64,000 nt of DNA from Bhargavaea sp. CC-171006 (GTDB lineage Bacteria; Bacillota; Bacilli; Bacillales_A; Planococcaceae), in the NCBI RefSeq assembly GCF_009761675.1, contig NZ_QUZH01000007.1, positions 1 through 64,000 on the forward strand, given 5' to 3'. The translations under genes and the position numbers were made by a program. Below are positions 4,565-51,319 of the stretch, in pieces. The notes beneath the pieces were generated by a model, which did not search any database, was not told the origin of the DNA, and was given only the letters and a program-made list of their open reading frames with translations. Each line of letters starts with the position of its first letter. Position 1 is the stretch's first letter.

Positions 4565-5953
4565 TTATAGAGGTACGTAACTCGCCGGGTTGACCGGGTT
4601 GCCGTACGATCCGATATGGAGTTCAAAATGAAGGTGAGGTCCGCTTGAACGTCCCGTTGAGCCCATCTTGCCGATCAGCTGGCCTTTGCCGACTTTCTGG
4701 CCTTTGCTCGTATTGATGGAGGACAGGTGTGCATAAAGCGTCGTGAAAGTTTTTCCGTCCATGTGGTGGGTCACCATGATGACATTGCCATACGTTCCGA
4801 ATTGGCCGGTATATGAGACAACGCCGTTACCCGCCGAGACGACAGGTGTGCCGGTGGAATTCGCGATGTCCACACCTGCGTGGTTCGACGATGCCCAGCT
4901 CAGATTACGATAGCCATAATTCGACGATAATCTGCCTGATGCTGGCCGTGTCCAATTGCCTCCGGATACCGATGGGGCTGGTGCGCTCGTCTGGCTTACA
5001 GAGCTCGATGGGGAAGAAGTCTTTCCGGATGAAGAAGAAGTCTTTCCAGCTGAAGAAGACGTACCCTTCCGGTTATTTTCTACTTGCTGCGCCGCTGCGG
5101 CAGCTGCAGCCTTACGGCGTTCTTCAGCTTCCTTGCGCTTCCGCTCTTCTTCGGCTTTTCGGGCAATCTCAGCAAGACGTTCCTGTTCAGCCACAATCTT
5201 CTGGGTAAGCTCTTGGCTGACTTCGTGTACTTCCTCGTACTCAGCCTCCAGGTTGGCCTGCTCTTTCTGCAGACGTGCCTGTTCCTCTTCAAGTTGAGTC
5301 ACCAGGCCATCGAGTTCGGCTTTCTGGCGATCAAGTTCAGCTTTCGCTTCCTCAAGCTTTTTCTTGTTTTCTTCTTGGGCGGCGAGCTTGTCCTCGACCT
5401 GCTGTTTCTGGTCTTCAAGAGTCGCCTTGTCCGCTTTTTGTTCAGCGATGATCTGGCGGTCAGCTTCTCTTAGCGTATTGACCGCTGAAACCCGGTCAAT
5501 GAAATCGGAGAAGCTGCTTGCACCCAAAAGTACATCGATATAGCCCGTAGACCCGCCGGTTACCTGCATGGCACGGACACGATCACGAAGCAAGGCATCG
5601 CGATCTGCTATTTTCTGTTCCAGATCTTTGATGGAGGCGCGGAGAGCTTCGATCTCTGCTTTTGTCTCCTGGATCTCTTGCTCGATCTCGGCGATTTCAC
5701 TTTGTTTGGTCTCGATCTTTCCGTGAAGGTCTTTGATCTGAGCAAGAAGCTTGTCCATTTTCTCGGAATTCACTTTTATATTGGATGCTTTCTCCTGGAT
5801 TCCCTGGTTCAGCTCGTTTTTCTTTTGTTCCATCTGCTGCTGTTCGTTCTGGAGATCATTGAGCTTGCTGGCCGACGCGCCGGTCGTGCCGAGCCCAAAG
5901 CTCAGGGCCATCGTGGCTGCCACGGCGGCGATCAGTGGCTTAGACTGCTTCAA
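4565..5953 (-). CDS. Coiled-coil M23 (LytM) murein hydrolase, probable FtsEX partner
   Basis: The 462-residue protein has a signal peptide ending near ASA (residues about 1-29), a long coiled coil of EnvC/PcsB type (about 30-280) rich in E, K and Q, a low-complexity Ser/Thr/Pro linker (about 295-335) and a C-terminal LytM endopeptidase domain. Zinc ligands are visible in HAGVDIA and HLHFEL, so it should be active. It follows ftsX by 65 bp with no terminator between. FtsEX is known to activate such coiled-coil hydrolases (PcsB in Streptococcus, CwlO in Bacillus, EnvC in E. coli), so this is very likely its cognate hydrolase. Confidence 0.88.
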   Translation of the reverse strand: MKQSKPLIAAVAATMALSFGLGTTGASASKLNDLQNEQQQMEQKKNELNQGIQEKASNIKVNSEKMDKLLAQIKDLHGKIETKQSEIAEIEQEIQETKAEIEALRASIKDLEQKIADRDALLRDRVRAMQVTGGSTGYIDVLLGASSFSDFIDRVSAVNTLREADRQIIAEQKADKATLEDQKQQVEDKLAAQEENKKKLEEAKAELDRQKAELDGLVTQLEEEQARLQKEQANLEAEYEEVHEVSQELTQKIVAEQERLAEIARKAEEERKRKEAEERRKAAAAAAAQQVENNRKGTSSSAGKTSSSSGKTSSPSSSVSQTSAPAPSVSGGNWTRPASGRLSSNYGYRNLSWASSNHAGVDIANSTGTPVVSAGNGVVSYTGQFGTYGNVIMVTHHMDGKTFTTLYAHLSSINTSKGQKVGKGQLIGKMGSTGRSSGPHLHFELHIGSYGNPVNPASYVPL

Positions 5954-27203: not shown

Positions 27204-30200
27204 TTATCTTGCCTGATCTGGCTTACCTGGTTTCTCAGGTTTACCCGGTTTCTTTGGTTTACCCGGTTTCTCAGGTTTACCCGGTTTCTCAGGTTTACCC
27301 GGCTTGCCCGGTCCAGGTGTTTCGCCCTTTACCGGTGTACGCTCGATTGTGACGGTCTCAGTCGTTTCGTGTCCGCCAAGATCAACCACTTTGAATGTGT
27401 AGTCGAACTTGCCTTCAACGAGCGGAACATCCACTTCGACTGTCTGGTCGAAGTTCTTGCTGCCGTAAGGTTCGCTCAGGTCATTGGCGAACACTTCGCT
27501 ATCATTTACATAGAGTCGGATGTCATCGAAGTTGTCTTTCACTTGTACCTGAACAGTGACAGATTCTTCTTCGGTCTTTTTAGGAAGCTTCGACTTGATG
27601 GAGAGCTGTGCCGCTGTCGCATCAACAAAGAATCTGCGGGCGATGGACATCTCGTTGCCGTGTTCGTCCGTCGCGCCAACTTTCACTGTCTGGAATCCGT
27701 CTTCCAGCGTGATTGTGTGGGAGAAATTGCTGCCATCGAATTCCGAAACAGCTTCCCCATTGACCGTAACAGAAGCGATTGCGGATTCATCTTCCACATG
27801 ACCGCTGACCGTGACTTCATTTGTACCGTATACAGAGAAGTTGGTCGGCTCATCGATATAAATCACCGGCCGGTTCTGTTCTGCCGGTTTCATTGAAATG
27901 TCATACTCAGAAACGTTTTTGGCTGCGTCATAGACACGCGCTTTCAGCTCATCATCCTCATCCGCTGCAATCTCGAATGTGGTTTCGCTGACCGGAAGCG
28001 TCTCGACTGTCTCGCCGTTCAGGATGACTTCCCAGACATCTGCGCCTGTTCCTTCATCCGTGAAGTTGCCGGCAGTGACGACATCCGTTTCAGGATTGTA
28101 GGAGAATTCGGCTTCAGGTGCTATAGTGTCCACCTTCACAGGGAACTTGATCGACTGCCATTCGGCGTCTTCAAAGTCGATGACCGCCTTGAGTTCGATA
28201 AAGTACTGGCCATCTTCAGCAGGCTGGCCATTGATCTTGCCGTCCCAAGCGTAGTTCATGCTGTACGTGTACGGCAGTGCAGTCGCAGAAGCGATGTAGT
28301 GCTTACGAAGATCTGAAGCAGTACGGATTGTCCGCACTTTCTTGCCGTCCGCATCAAGGACATTCACTTCCATCTGCTTGGCGTTCCGGAACAGCGAGTA
28401 GACCGGGGTTACCTGGTCACGGAGTCCGTCACCGTTCGGAGAGAAGCCGAAGCGGTCTGTTTCGAAGTTTCCTCCGCCGTCGACAAACTCACCTTGCTCA
28501 TCCGCAAGGGCAGTGTAGCCCCAGTACGTACGCTCGTCCCATGCAAAGTAATCAAAGATCGGAGCGTCATCCCAGCCGCCGTTGAATCCGAAGAACGGAA
28601 CGGAAAGAGGGACATTGCCTGAGATTTCTTCATTCGGGTCTTCAAGGAAGACAAATCCGTCCACGAAGTAGCCGTTCGTAAAGATTGACTTCAGGCTATC
28701 TGCATTGGAAAGGTCGACTGTGACATCAATGGTGGCTGTGCCGCCGGCCGGAACCGTGACGGTTTCAGGTGCATCGATTGCCACATCTTCTGTGAGAACC
28801 ATGGAGCCCATAAGGTTAGAAGCTGTTACCAGTGTTCCACCCGCATTAACCGGCTGGTCCGCCTGGACTGCAGTGGAGACATTGTACGTCTTCTCTTCAT
28901 CGGAGAAGTTTTCTGCAGTCAGCGACAGGGTGATTGTATTGTTCTTGATTTCCTTCAGCGCCACTTTCGCTTCGTCTGTTGCCGAGTCAGTGACGACAAC
29001 ATCCGTATGGAGTGCATTGGCCAGTTGCATCAGGCCTGCACCCTGACGGCGAGGAGAAACATAATCGCCGTTTCCTTCATCGAAGACGACCGGATTGGCC
29101 GTGTTCATGAGAAGTTTCTTGGCGAATTCGGAACGCTCGCGTCCCGTCAGGCCGAACTCTTCATCAACACGCTCGAACAGGAGTGCTGCCCCGCCCGCCA
29201 CGTGGGGTGCCGCCATCGACGTACCGCTCATGATGCCGTACTGGTCATTCTCGAGTGTCGAGAAGATGTTGCCGCCTGGAGCAGTGATTTCCGGCTTGAA
29301 GTCCAGGTTCGGAGTCGGACCCCAGGACGTGAAGTCGCTCATCTGTCCTGCGTTGGCATTTGGCGTATCAACATATTCACCGTCGAATGTGACTGTGACA
29401 GTCTCGCCTGCCTTTGCCGCTTCAGACATTGCCAGGCCATCAGATTGGAGGATCGACATGTATGGAATCCGGATCGCAGGGTCGGATGCCATGTTGATTG
29501 TGCCAGCCGTGTTGTTGTAGATGATAACGCCTGCAGCACCGGCTGCCTGCGCGTTGAGGCCTTTTTCTGTGAATGCAATGTCACCGCGGGAGATGAGGGC
29601 ATACTTACCCGTAAAGTCTTTGCCTTCAAAGTCTTCCGGATGGCCGAAGCCGGCATCCACAATTTCAAATGTTTTTTGTTCCTGGGCCAGCGGATCCACG
29701 TCGTTCGCGAGCATATAGCCGCTCCGCTGCTCTTCACCGCCGCCGATCTTATAGCCGAAGCTCATCGAACGGACCATGTCGTTTTCGAACGATGCAACCC
29801 CTAGGGAATCCTTCGAGACACTCGGAGACCCTGTTACGCCGTAGTCCTGGTTTTCCACATAGTTATAGAAGTAACCATCACCGAAGAGAGCAGAGTTCCC
29901 AGCCGAGATGGCGACAAGGATCCCGTTCTCGACAGCGCGGGAGACCGCCTGCTGTTCCGGGCTTGTCTCATCGACGTAACCTGCTGTAGAGCCGAGGCTC
30001 AGGTTCAGGACGTCAGCGCCAAGCTGGATGGCATCATCCATCGCCTTGACGTAGACATCCCCGTAAGTGGACGGATAAAGCGGATCGTTCCCGAACACTT
30101 TCAGCGCGAGGATCTGGGCTTCAGGTGCGACGCCTTTCACTCCGCCGTTTTCTTCGTCACCATTGGCCCCTACCGTGCCGGCCACGTGCATGCCGTGCAT

Positions 30201-31974: not shown

Positions 31975-33171
31975 CTATTTAACAGGCGGATCCGGAACGC
32001 CGGTGCGCATGTCTCCCCGAACCTTCCGGACAAACGTGCCGAGCCGCTCCATTCCCTTCTCCAACTGGTCCATGCTGGCGGCATAGGAGATCCGGATGTG
32101 TCCCTCTCCGTACATGGTGAACGCACTGCCGTGGACGACCGCCACGCCCTCTTCCTCGAGTGCCCGGATGGCGAAGTCTTTTGAGGTGAGCGGAAATTCC
32201 TCAATTGAGGGAAATGCGTAGAAAGCACCGGTCGGGCGGACGAGAGGAAGATTCATGTCTTTCAGTGCTGCGGTGATGAATGCCCTTCTCTTGATATAGG
32301 TCCGGTTCATTTTACCGGGTGCATCAGTGTCTCCCGTATACGCCTCGATTGCCGCATACTGAGACGGGGTCGGTGCACAGATAGCATTGTACGCGTGGAT
32401 CTTCACGATGTGCTGCATCACCTCTGCCGGCCCGAACAGCACCCCGATCCGCCACCCTGTCATCGAATGGGACTTTGAAAGGCCATGGATCAGGAACAGC
32501 CGGTCCCGGAGCGCCGGGTAGACTCCGAATGATTGATGTGGTGCGTCGAACGTATTCTCGGAGTAGATATCATCAGACAGGATAAAGACCTCATGCCTGC
32601 CGAGCACCTCGGCGAGCCGGTCCATCTGGTCTTTCGGGATCGCGACACCGGTCGGATTTGACGGGTTGTTGAAGATGACGACCTTCGTCCTCGGCGTGAT
32701 CAATGTTTCAAGCGCTTCCGGGTCCGGGATAAACCCGGTCCGCCGGGTATCCAGATAAACCGGAGACGCACCGGCCAAACGGATCAGCGGTTCATAGCCT
32801 GCGTAAATCGGTACCGGGATAATCGCCTCATCGCCCGGTTCCAGAATCGACCGAAGCACTGCATCCATCGACCCGCTCCCGCCCGCTGTGATCACCGTCT
32901 CGGTTGACGGATCATAAAGGAACCCATACTTTTTGCCATAGTACTCGGCAGCCGCCCTCCTCAGCTCCGGCAGCCCAGCATTCATCGAATACCCCGTCCC
33001 CCGCTGTGCAATGGCCTGCCGCGCCGCCTCTTTCACCTCATCCGGAGGCGGAAAATCCGGCTGTCCCACCGTCAGATTCACCGCCCCCGGATGCTCCGCA
33101 AGCCGGTTCGACATCTGACGGATCCCCGAAAGCGGCGTCTGCTCCACCAGCGGATTGATCCTGAGTGCCAT
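31975..33171 (-). CDS. Class I/II PLP aminotransferase (PatA/AspC-like)
   Basis: The 398-residue PLP enzyme has the substrate-arginine and cofactor regions GGSGSMDAVL, FNNPSNPTGV, the Tyr in LSDDIYSE and the Schiff-base lysine in HGLSKSHSMTGWRIG. It resembles the PatA branch, whose substrates include N-acetyl-diaminopimelate or other amino acids; the exact substrate cannot be told. I chose ATG 33171 with AAGGAAAGG upstream. The frame stays open to 33345 only because it runs through the 21-bp repeat array, which encodes heptads of QRLNEI type; that extension is not believable. Confidence 0.9.
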   Translation of the reverse strand: MALRINPLVEQTPLSGIRQMSNRLAEHPGAVNLTVGQPDFPPPDEVKEAARQAIAQRGTGYSMNAGLPELRRAAAEYYGKKYGFLYDPSTETVITAGGSGSMDAVLRSILEPGDEAIIPVPIYAGYEPLIRLAGASPVYLDTRRTGFIPDPEALETLITPRTKVVIFNNPSNPTGVAIPKDQMDRLAEVLGRHEVFILSDDIYSENTFDAPHQSFGVYPALRDRLFLIHGLSKSHSMTGWRIGVLFGPAEVMQHIVKIHAYNAICAPTPSQYAAIEAYTGDTDAPGKMNRTYIKRRAFITAALKDMNLPLVRPTGAFYAFPSIEEFPLTSKDFAIRALEEEGVAVVHGSAFTMYGEGHIRISYAASMDQLEKGMERLGTFVRKVRGDMRTGVPDPPVK

Positions 33172-33227
33172 AGTGATCATCCTTTCCTTATCAGTCAGTT
33201 TATGATGGCCTCCGCGACGGATAGAAG

Positions 33228-33332
33228 AGTGGCGTTGCGTAATTAGGGTGAAACGTTGCGTTATTATATTGAGACGTTGACATATTTCATTGAGACATTG
33301 ACATATTTCATTGAGACGTTGATATATTCTCA
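33228..33332 (+). repeat. 21-bp direct repeat array 1
   Basis: Five tandem 21-bp units read on the plus strand, starting at about 33228, 33249, 33270, 33291 and 33312. The core is TGAGACGTTGA followed by CATATTTCAT-like sequence. Units 3 and 4 differ at one position, and the first unit is the most degraded. The array lies upstream of the aminotransferase and overlaps the last codons of the NERD gene. No spacers separate the units. Confidence 0.93.
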
Positions 33333-34408
33333 CCAGGTACCTCAATCCCCTGTTCTTCCGCCCACATCAGCGGACCGTTGCCCAATTTAGCGTAACGGGT
33401 TGCAGGAGGCTCACCATATTTGATCAGAGTCAGGGACTTCAGGACTCTTGTCGCCTGGGAACTATGCCGGAGCCGGAGAAATTCTCTACATTGCTTGTTC
33501 GTGATTTCCGGCCCGATCAAGATCAGGCGGTCTTCAACCGCCTGGCGCACCGCTTCTCTTCCCGGCAGGTCGCAGGTTTTACAGTACCAGCTTCGCTTAC
33601 GGACGTTGTGGATCAGCCGGTGACATTTGAGGCAGAGCACACCCGTTCGAAAAAGCTTCGGGTTTAGTTCCAGTTCTTGACGTAGAGGAAGTCTGGCGCT
33701 GTCGGGGACCTGAGATCCGATCAATTCGGCTAAACGGGCAAATATCTTCGTAGCAAGTGGCAGCCCATCTGCCACAAGTGACCGGAAATAACGCGCAAGC
33801 TGTTTCCGGTACAGGAGCGTGTACGTGGCCGGCCGCTTCTTCACGACTGTGTTCTGGTTCGCCAAGACGATGGCCCCATAGACTGGCAATGAAATCTGAA
33901 GGGTGGACAGAAACTGATTAAGGCCGTTAATCTGCCGATCCAGCTGATTTACATAGCAATCAAACTCATCGGTTTGACCATTCTCCCGGATGCGGACGGT
34001 CTTCCCTTCCCCTTCATTGAAAAAGAGAGTCCCGGCAATATTCTTCACTTCAAGGACCAGTACAAAGCTTGGCGTGAGAATCAGGACATCGATTTCAATC
34101 CGGTAGCCTTTCCTGATCAGTAGCGAGACGTTTCTAAATACATGTGTCCCTTCTGGAAAAATCACTTCCGAAAGTGTCTGCTCTACCGCCTCTTCCCCTG
34201 CCCTCCCTGCTCTTTTCCGATAAAGGATGGTTTCAATATCTTCCAACGCCTGCCTTCTCTCCCGTTCAAACTTCCCATCGTTTGAGGCGATGCCCAGCAT
34301 CGCTTCAACTGTCGGCACGTCTGTCCGGCCCACCTCTTCCAATTCCTCAGGCTGAAGACGAACAACGGCGCGTTCCAGGCGATGAACCTCCCAGTCAGTC
34401 GTATCCAC
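33308..34408 (-). CDS. NERD-domain protein with zinc ribbon
   Basis: The 366-residue protein has an N-terminal helical region, a NERD (nuclease-related) domain at about 70-190 with PD-(D/E)XK-like residues in RIEIDVLIL and VLEVKN, and a C-terminal zinc-ribbon-like CLKC/CKTC pair (about 270-295). NERD proteins are predicted nucleases of unknown role. GTG 34408 follows GAGGAG by 6 nt. The last residues, ISTSQ, and the stop are encoded inside repeat array 1. Arrays 1 and 2 bracket the gene in opposite orientation. Confidence 0.85.
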   Translation of the reverse strand: MDTTDWEVHRLERAVVRLQPEELEEVGRTDVPTVEAMLGIASNDGKFERERRQALEDIETILYRKRAGRAGEEAVEQTLSEVIFPEGTHVFRNVSLLIRKGYRIEIDVLILTPSFVLVLEVKNIAGTLFFNEGEGKTVRIRENGQTDEFDCYVNQLDRQINGLNQFLSTLQISLPVYGAIVLANQNTVVKKRPATYTLLYRKQLARYFRSLVADGLPLATKIFARLAELIGSQVPDSARLPLRQELELNPKLFRTGVLCLKCHRLIHNVRKRSWYCKTCDLPGREAVRQAVEDRLILIGPEITNKQCREFLRLRHSSQATRVLKSLTLIKYGEPPATRYAKLGNGPLMWAEEQGIEVPGENISTSQ

Positions 34409-34534
34409 TTGAGTCTCCTCTCCGGCCGGAGGGGGATCGCAAAATAAAAAGCGTCCGGCTTCGTTTCCTTTACCATAGGGGAAGGAGAGCCGTGACGCAA
34501 TAACTGAATTTTTAATTTTATGAATTCTGCATCA

Positions 34535-34618
34535 ATGAAGTTAATCAACATTTCTTTAAACTTAGTCAACGTTTCAGCGAAGATAATCAACGTCTCACAA
34601 CAGATGGTCAACGTCTCA
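34535..34618 (-). repeat. 21-bp direct repeat array 2
   Basis: Four tandem 21-bp units read on the minus strand, from 34618, 34597, 34576 and 34555 downward. The first two begin TGAGACGTTGA, the third TGAAACGTTGA and the fourth AGAAATGTTGA. The TGA of the first unit (34616-34618) is the stop codon of the EamA gene. The orientation is opposite to array 1. Confidence 0.93.
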
Positions 34619-35530
34619 CCCCGACTCGTCAGCACTCCGCTGTTTCCGCTTCTTCCACAAATCCTCCGCCGCTCCGGATCCGAAGAGGACGCCGGTGACG
34701 ATCAGGACGAGGCCGAGCAGGTGACGGTTGGTAAGGGGTTCGCCGAGGAAGACGGCGGAGCCGAGAAGTGCGATTAAGGTGTTCAGGTTCATGAAGATGG
34801 CGGCTTTGGTCGGACCGGCCTGGCCGACCGAGTAGTTGTAGAGCATATGGCTGATGGCGGTTCCGAACAGGGCACTGAGCCCGAAGATCAGCCAGAATGT
34901 CGGAGGGACCTGTCCAAACGCGGCAAGTTCGCCTGGTTCCGCGAACAGGCCGATCACAAACAGGGTGGAGCCGCCGATCAGAAGCATATAGGCTGTCAGC
35001 AGCCTCGGATCGAGTGTCGCCGCAGCTTTAGCAACTATCAGGAAACTGAGCACCTGTACGGCGATGGACAGGAAGATGAAAACGTCACCCTGTGAGATGT
35101 CCGACAGTCCGCCGCCTGCAAGGACAACCGAGCTGACACCAATCAGTCCGAGAAGGACACCGAGCCACTGCAACCTGGACGGGAACACCCGGATGAGCAG
35201 CGAAGAGAACACTGCGGTCAGGAACGGTCCTGTCCCCAGGATGAGTGCGGCATTGGTGCCGGAGGTCATGGTCAGTCCCGCATTCAGGAAGTAGTGATGT
35301 GCCACGACGTTCAGCAGCATTCCCGGGATGATATAAATCCATTCAGAACGGCGCGGAAGACGGATGATTTTCATGGCCGAGAGGATGATGAAGACGGCTA
35401 CCCCAGCGGTGGAAATACGGAGGGACGTCATCGTGACGGGCCCTACAAACTCAAGCAAATACTTCAGCATCGGGAGGTTCAGTCCCCACATGAACATCAC
35501 GAGCGTCAGCATCAAATAAATCTTCCACAT
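34616..35530 (-). CDS. EamA-family (DMT) transporter
   Basis: The 304-residue protein has ten hydrophobic segments as two EamA repeats (about 5-140 and 150-290), with motifs MWGLNLPMLKYLL and a conserved GTAISHMLYNYSV. Members export amino acids or metabolites; the substrate is unknown. The final codons DESG and TGA run straight into repeat array 2. The C-terminal tail after the last helix is basic (WKKRKQR). Confidence 0.92.
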   Translation of the reverse strand: MWKIYLMLTLVMFMWGLNLPMLKYLLEFVGPVTMTSLRISTAGVAVFIILSAMKIIRLPRRSEWIYIIPGMLLNVVAHHYFLNAGLTMTSGTNAALILGTGPFLTAVFSSLLIRVFPSRLQWLGVLLGLIGVSSVVLAGGGLSDISQGDVFIFLSIAVQVLSFLIVAKAAATLDPRLLTAYMLLIGGSTLFVIGLFAEPGELAAFGQVPPTFWLIFGLSALFGTAISHMLYNYSVGQAGPTKAAIFMNLNTLIALLGSAVFLGEPLTNRHLLGLVLIVTGVLFGSGAAEDLWKKRKQRSADESG

Positions 35531-46399: not shown

Positions 46400-46462
46400 C
46401 GGAACGGTGATGATCTCTGGTGAGATGTTGATGATCTTTTGTGAAACGTTGACGATCCTTCC
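46400..46462 (+). repeat. 21-bp direct repeat array 3
   Basis: Three units read on the plus strand at 46400-46420, 46421-46441 and 46442-46462. The second and third begin TGAGATGTTGA and TGAAACGTTGA. The first is degraded. The array starts 4 nt after the ywqA stop (46393-46395). Confidence 0.85.
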
Positions 46463-51277: not shown

Positions 51278-51319
51278 CGCTTCTTTAGCAACGTCTCAAT
51301 ATACTTTGTTAACGTCCCC
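51278..51319 (-). repeat. 21-bp direct repeat array 4
   Basis: Two units read on the minus strand: 51319-51299 (GGGGACGTTAAC...) and 51298-51278 (TGAGACGTTGC...). They lie between the spoIIQ terminator and the spoIIID start. This is the shortest and most degraded array. Confidence 0.7.

Follow-up and report, generated by a model that had tools for sequence, protein, structure and literature searches.

A NERD-domain gene of Bhargavaea and its private family of 21-bp repeat arrays

The NERD locus and its protein

The window is a 64,000-nt stretch of Bhargavaea sp. CC-171006 (Bacilli), positions 1–64,000 of NZ_QUZH01000007.1. It contains a gene for a NERD-domain protein whose neighbors are an aminotransferase gene and an EamA transporter gene, with no cas genes adjoining (Table 1). 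An array of 21-bp repeats lies on each side of the NERD gene. The first-pass annotation described five and four units that point inward with a strict 21-bp period, and this architecture was confirmed, the end units being weak or degenerate. The cores of array 1 start at 33228, 33249, 33270, 33291, and 33312, and the first of them, AGTGGCGTTGC, has 4 mismatches to TGAGACGTTGA. Array 2 has cores at 34608–34618, 34587–34597, and 34566–34576, and a weak fourth at 34545–34555 (3 mismatches). The unit spacing is exactly 21 in both arrays, and the arrays face each other. Both touch stop codons: the last part of the NERD frame lies within array 1, and array 2 starts with the EamA stop codon (34616–34618), which is its first TGA.

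Table 1. Positions of features in the window and core sequences of the NERD genes of the source genome
Feature	Position	Strand	Description
NERD gene	33308..34408	-	366 aa from GTG 34408; open frame extends further upstream; stop at 33308-33310
Predicted nuclease domain (NERD)	33863..34207	-	Pfam and structural aligner matches
Zinc ribbon, C259-C279	33572..33634	-	Invariant cysteines
Predicted winged-helix domain, residues 283-345	33374..33562	-	VIA-align matches, middling
Array 1	33228..33332	+	Five 21-bp units, core TGARACGTTG(A/C), unit 1 degenerate; antisense to NERD
Array 2	34535..34618	-	Four 21-bp units; sense to NERD
Hairpin, then T run	34451..34498	-	Between array 2 and NERD; separate from the array
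Solo array, same unit as arrays 1 and 2	46400..46462	+	Two clear units, one degenerate; after the stop of the SNF2 helicase gene (46395)
Single unit of the window's array family	51288..51298	-	Relative G003 has a full array at the same site
Core of L002			GAATGACGARAC
Core of L003 (window gene; core A)			TGARACGTTGA
Core of L004			CTTGGACTCTC
Core of L005			GAATGTCTCGATAC
Core of L006			AATCTTCAAACTC
Core of L008 (core B)			GAAAGTGAYGAA

The window was scanned for tandem repeats with periods of 15–30 at 29 of 42 identities. Period 21 was found at four places, three of which have the unit of the NERD arrays, and periods 18 and 27 were found at one place each, both in a single coding repeat at 27.2 kb. 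The 18-bp coding repeat at 27223–27302 is the lysine-proline-glycine rich tail that ends a subtilase gene and is unrelated to the NERD arrays. Another period-21 repeat, at 4996–5071 within a long coding frame, belongs to a different family. A reading of the arrays as RNA elements was rejected: a search of 33150–34750 against Rfam found nothing at E up to 1, and three arrays taken as single-stranded DNA folded no better than their shuffles (z of −0.02, 1.27, and 0.19). The hairpin between array 2 and the NERD gene has a predicted RNA fold of −22.4 kcal/mol, with a z of only −1.4 and 18 of 200 shuffles equally good; it is perhaps a terminator or leader. It contains a CCTATGGTAAAGGAAA stretch, and five Bhargavaea genomes keep the motif at the locus, including two that lack the NERD gene.

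The window protein matches Pfam NERD (PF08378) with an E of 2.9e-14, its 53.9 bits lying above the gathering score of 22.1. Eleven residues (G68, G71, E72, D107, E120, K122, Q155, and the cysteines C259, C262, C276, and C279) are invariant in 23/23 aligned relatives. A Pfam scan of 23 members found NERD in all 23 and listed 15 families in all; Transposase_17 is absent from these 15, and no replication initiator family was found in the 23 members, although the fold is nevertheless predicted to be winged-helix. The predicted structure has a pLDDT of 88.8. Model residues of about 65–216 match Cdn1, Can2, XisH, McrC, and BstEII with middling VIA-align Z scores of 7.5–9.3, and residues 283–345 match Zalpha (6.2), IclR (5.8), and MarR (5.8), also middling; the two domains are told apart by this aligner only. 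Foldseek found no match to the model in the PDB at E ≤0.001, and a profile search of PDB sequences gave matches over the zinc-ribbon stretch only, with a best E of 0.0087. By fold and motif only, the protein is predicted to combine a PD-(D/E)xK nuclease with two DNA-reading domains, a zinc ribbon and a winged helix. Its identity to three orthologues is 72, 67, and 51%, compared to 91, 87, and 71% for the aminotransferase and 92, 93, and 81% for EamA. Judged by these identities, the NERD gene is evolving fast relative to its neighbors.

Arrays beside NERD genes and their cores

The source genome has nine NERD matches. L007 is a NERD-UvrD helicase fusion without arrays, and the match on C26 is a fragment. 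The remaining seven are full NERD genes with a zinc ribbon, and all seven have arrays beside them, six of period 21 and one of period 20. Period-21 arrays are on both sides of L002, L003 (the window gene), L004, and L008; L005 has a single one, downstream, and L006 a single one, upstream; L001 has a 20-bp array on its downstream side. The pair is inverted at the window gene, L002, and L004, and direct at L008; L215 and L232, which are not among these seven genes, also have direct pairs. Each paralogue has its own core (Table 1). In the four families that were profiled, the unit consists of 11–14 conserved positions and 7–10 freer ones.

The association was measured in eight Bhargavaea genomes using NERD frames of at least 300 aa, with the start set 60 residues before the AGxxGE motif. 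An array lies within 300 bp of 47 of the 64 NERD genes and, with the same detector, of 18 of 302 other genes. Arrays on both sides were found at 25 of the 64 NERD genes compared to none of the 302 others. The first-pass annotation had proposed looking for 21-bp arrays at the NERD genes of related Planococcaceae, and they are there. A relative of the window protein was found in 131 of 151 genomes of the bacterial family (E 1e-10). Among the 30 family loci listed, 29 have a period-21 array with the four-unit detector and 27 with the three-unit detector; leaving aside the window gene and three congeners, which are counted among the 30, the four-unit detector gives 25/26. The 30 loci hold 56 period-21 segments, and each other period from 15 to 30 gives 0 or 1.

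Beyond the family, we hand-picked 20 long NERDs from 16 genomes of the class, representing 12 families outside the window's own. Thirteen have a period-21 array, in every case within 1.2 kb of the domain, and one more has a 20-bp array; seven are without a period-21 array, which counts against a strict pairing. Short NERDs of the class rarely have arrays, with period-21 arrays at 1 (three-unit detector) or 2 (four-unit detector) of the 30 loci listed. The zinc-ribbon motif follows the NERD domain in 19 of the 20 long proteins and in none of the 30 short ones. Arrays therefore go with the C-terminal domains.

A set of 68 distinct NERD loci was assembled from eight genomes, counts leaving out masked runs. 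A period-21 array is present at 52, a 20-bp array at seven (L001, L253, L254, L256, L258, L259, and L260), a 22-bp array at one (L226), and none at eight. Of the eight loci with none, one adjoins a masked run, one lies at the edge of a contig, and one is a fragment. The 16 loci that lack a period-21 array count against the proposed pairing. Full-length zinc-ribbon NERDs without an array at periods 20–22 are L222, L228, L233, L235, and L239. In the L001 clade, six of the seven members have 20-bp arrays; therefore, the period goes with the protein.

Usable arrays at 50 of the 68 loci allowed the cores to be compared with the proteins. Between genomes, array similarity is 0.34 for proteins less than 30% identical (n = 648) and rises to 0.84 for those at 75% or more (n = 30). 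For the 46 genes that have a relative of at least 45% identity in another genome, the best-matching foreign array belongs to such a relative in 40 cases; in 2000 shuffles this number averaged 5.3 and reached 14 at most. These cases are not independent because orthologous loci are syntenic where checked, and shared descent of the flanks contributes. The enrichment, the two-sided pairs, and the co-variation with the protein bear out the original impression that the arrays belong with the NERD gene.

Dispersal, gene loss, and comparison of sites

The unit is not restricted to the surroundings of the NERD gene. A third array follows the SNF2 helicase gene within the window (Table 1), and the window core at up to 3 mismatches gives 54 pairs in 20 places of the genome, two at the NERD gene and 18 elsewhere; the reversed pattern gives 0. 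The L008 core gives 58 pairs (control, 0), spread over 15 places of which two are beside its NERD gene and 13 elsewhere; two of the 15, on C4 and at the end of C6, share an identical stretch and may be one. A random scatter without enrichment at NERD loci, or array pairs in this strain alone, had been named in advance as speaking against the association. The unit does occur near many unrelated genes, but NERD loci are strongly enriched, and in many strains.

A sample of 400 kb was stepped along four contigs, chosen regardless of arrays, with no NERD gene inside. It contains 14 period-21 arrays, and the core of 12 of them is that of a NERD gene from the same genome. The same assignment rule applied to arrays of other genera assigned 4/40 and 1/15. 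The two arrays outside the rule, one in a long frame and one intergenic, resemble by eye the cores beside L234 and L220 of sister species. In about 800 kb, periods 17, 19, 23, and 25 gave 0 arrays, 18 and 24 gave 4 each, 20 gave 10, and 22 gave 1. By eye, at least one 20-bp array in the sample has the L001 unit. Period-21 arrays are common here, with 19 in 464 kb including the window, as would be expected if ordinary tandem repeats lay beside the gene by chance. The controls with other genes, other periods, NERDs without a zinc ribbon, and reversed patterns argue against chance, and we give it practically no weight.

The aminotransferase-NERD-EamA locus is syntenic in all seven other Bhargavaea genomes. 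The NERD gene is intact in G003, G056, and G086, carries an internal deletion in G040, is deleted with an array remnant left in G022, and is absent from G077 and G067. The deletion in the G040 orthologue (L262, on C17) is of ~770 bp, and core-A pairs are fewer in that genome. Mobility had been one of the first suggestions, with the arrays as the ends of a mobile cassette, and the inverted pairs at the window gene, L002, and L004 have the expected form. The direct pair at L008 does not, the locus holds its place in eight Bhargavaea genomes, and no relative was found in phages or plasmids (two queries, E 1e-5) or in one viral-contig scan. No target duplication was noticed by eye at the compared sites. 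A cassette is therefore very improbable. An insertion sequence or transposon was also considered and rejected on the shared position in the eight genomes and the lack of relatives in phages or plasmids at E 1e-5.

The abundance of core A follows the gene. Genomes with an intact NERD gene have 54 (G000), 81 (G003), 71 (G056), and 100 (G086, a variant core) core-A pairs, and those in which it is broken or absent have 23 (G040), 11 (G022), 7 (G077), and 0 (G067). Among the matches listed, those of G022 have 1–3 mismatches and those of G077 have 2–3. The core-A pattern gave 0–2 in 12 genomes of other genera, where the reversed control was matched in three (1, 7, and 1), which counts against it. 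Two further cores were used for predictions, both set before testing. The prediction for core D held, with counts of 19, 15, 29, and 27 in genomes with the gene, 7, 0, 0, and 0 in those without, and 0 in four other genera. For the second core, the two genomes in which it was expected gave 66 and 68, and the others gave 22 (G077), 21 (G022), 9 (G040), 8 (G056), 2, and 2; many of the matches in these six are variant cores, as are most of those in G077 and G022, and this prediction held only in part. Neither G003 nor G056 has an L008 orthologue, yet they carry as many as 28 and 37 core-B arrays, which speaks against a strict gene-array rule.

The site 3' of the helicase gene, which was assigned by Pfam as SNF2, was compared in eight genomes. 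Arrays are present in G000, G056, and G003, degenerate remnants are visible by eye in G040, G022, and G077, and there is nothing in G067. In G086 the site (L296) has an array of a different family, TTGCAATTAGA, with more than 12 units. The spacing of the L296 array seems by eye to alternate between 20 and 21 bp. At two further sites mapped in G077 the detector found no array, and decayed units are visible at one. At one site the unit subtype and number differ between species with the cores intact. Two of the three compared sites are common to the three NERD-bearing species tested. The compared sites are mostly shared between species, and therefore any spread to new places would be slow or past.

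Placed arrays are mostly in gene gaps, 17/36 convergent and 5/36 divergent (two with a neighbor out of reach were dropped). In core A, 27 intergenic arrays have a sense gene upstream, and 16 of these begin within 60 bp of the end of its frame. Between tandem genes core A is 12 sense and 2 antisense, and all families are 8/6; hence, a fixed orientation to the upstream gene is not claimed. This placement, together with the two sites common to three species, suggests that the arrays could be host regulatory or architectural sites, such as 3'-end insulators, roadblocks, or nucleoid anchors. NERD would then be their DNA-binding protein, the cores would be kept by host selection, and the nuclease would be secondary. 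We consider this unlikely: the nuclease residues are invariant in all 23 relatives, sister species lose the gene and the arrays together, a different array family occupies the same site in one genome, and the unit subtypes at one site vary by species.

A proposed mechanism and its relation to known systems

We think it probable, with modest confidence, that the NERD gene and its arrays form a two-part chromosomal element in which a site-specific NERD nuclease maintains and rewrites recognition arrays of its own that are in phase with the DNA helix. The suggestion of a binding site in the first-pass annotation stands to the extent that the arrays look like protein-binding sites. The core of 11–14 bp would be read by the winged helix and the zinc ribbon. 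The 21-bp spacing would equal two turns of B-DNA (20 or 22 bp for some proteins) and would align the protein copies along the same side of the helix. At arrays occupied by the protein, the PD-(D/E)xK domain would nick or cut, and repair using sister arrays would lengthen, shorten, or rewrite the arrays in place. New arrays would be seeded occasionally, mostly in intergenic gaps. Subtypes and unit numbers differ at one site while the cores are intact, which points to replacement from other arrays and not to slow drift. The breaks for such replacement could be supplied by the nuclease nicking at its own arrays.

The nearest system in behavior is RAYT/REP. According to passages of PMC2817692, a RAYT gene is flanked by its own dispersed repeats, which are often inverted, gene and repeat co-vary, and repeat abundance follows the gene. 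The same passages describe RAYT genes as evolving faster than their neighbors with orthologues that stay in place, relate them to IS200/IS605 transposases, and describe REPs as palindromes with a GT(A/G)G head (PMC2817692). The NERD system is alike in its dispersed repeats, its fast-evolving gene, and its orthologues in place. The gene and repeat co-vary and abundance follows the gene, with core B and the second predicted core as exceptions. The inverted pair is shared at the window gene, L002, and L004, but is not general, being direct or one-sided elsewhere. The enzyme differs in that the NERD protein, as predicted, is a PD-(D/E)xK nuclease with a zinc ribbon and winged helix and lacks Transposase_17. 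The repeat differs in that its units are non-palindromic, direct, and of strict period, with no folding beyond shuffles. Membership in RAYT/REP thus fails on both enzyme and repeat. By analogy, the NERD gene may sustain its own repeats in the way that RAYT sustains REP, though neither the enzyme nor the repeat is related.

A rather improbable alternative is a defence nuclease that cuts incoming DNA and for which its own arrays would be self marks that it leaves uncut or sinks that titrate it. To our knowledge, the known NERD defence proteins need no array, which counts against this, as does the position of the window gene between aminotransferase and transporter genes. In its favor, Bhargavaea genomes have 7 to 12 NERD matches each, fragments among them, and NERD domains are part of the defence proteins PglW/BREX, MAD6, Mokosh, and TALON, in passages that leave arrays unmentioned. 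A table in PMC10952713 gives a NERD domain in the Mokosh defence system. The window protein shares with these proteins the NERD nuclease domain and only that. Its profile matches are weak, at 17 bits against a cut-off of 460 for MAD6 and at 35–149 of 1403 for PglW, so it matches their NERD part and not their full length.

Our literature search, limited largely to open papers, found no report linking NERD genes with such arrays. The relevant passages of PMC4057527, PMC10910872, PMC12802215, PMC10952713, and PMC12458937 contain nothing that ties the two together; the passage in PMC4057527 describes an IS-flanked toxin cluster with a NERD domain nearby and mentions no arrays. The partnership of protein and repeat is apparently undescribed, in agreement with the first-pass statement that no element of such a form was known. 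The proposed mechanism leads to a broader suggestion that we make tentatively, namely that these genes represent an undescribed class of genome-resident repeat system. In such a class, each PD-(D/E)xK (NERD) nuclease would use nicking and ectopic repair to propagate and continually rewrite direct-repeat arrays of its own, in phase with the helix; a genome would have several pairs, each of independent specificity, and the protein would set the period at 20, 21, or 22. If so, the RAYT/REP way of life would have arisen a second time, from an unrelated nuclease that is usually filed as a 'NERD domain protein' without a substrate. It would give NERD proteins a testable target and would explain most of the sampled period-21 intergenic arrays of the source genome. 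It would also offer dozens of naturally occurring protein-site combinations from which to work out the specificity code of a winged-helix nuclease.

Two other kinds of regular repeat resemble the arrays. Plasmid iterons are direct arrays of about 20–22 bp that are read by a winged-helix initiator. The NERD system has similar direct arrays of ~21 bp and a predicted winged-helix protein, but its arrays are chromosomal and come in several families per genome, and its protein has a nuclease domain and no Pfam initiator family. CRISPR repeats are about 23 bp or more and alternate with longer unique spacers. The likeness lies in the regular repeats with variable stretches between them; the NERD unit differs in being 21 bp with 7–10 variable positions, in its many places and both orientations, and, at the window gene, in the lack of adjoining cas genes. 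A figure legend in PMC10910872 names NERD among putative CRISPR auxiliary genes. Our guess is that arrays like these might be mistaken for CRISPR by an array finder.
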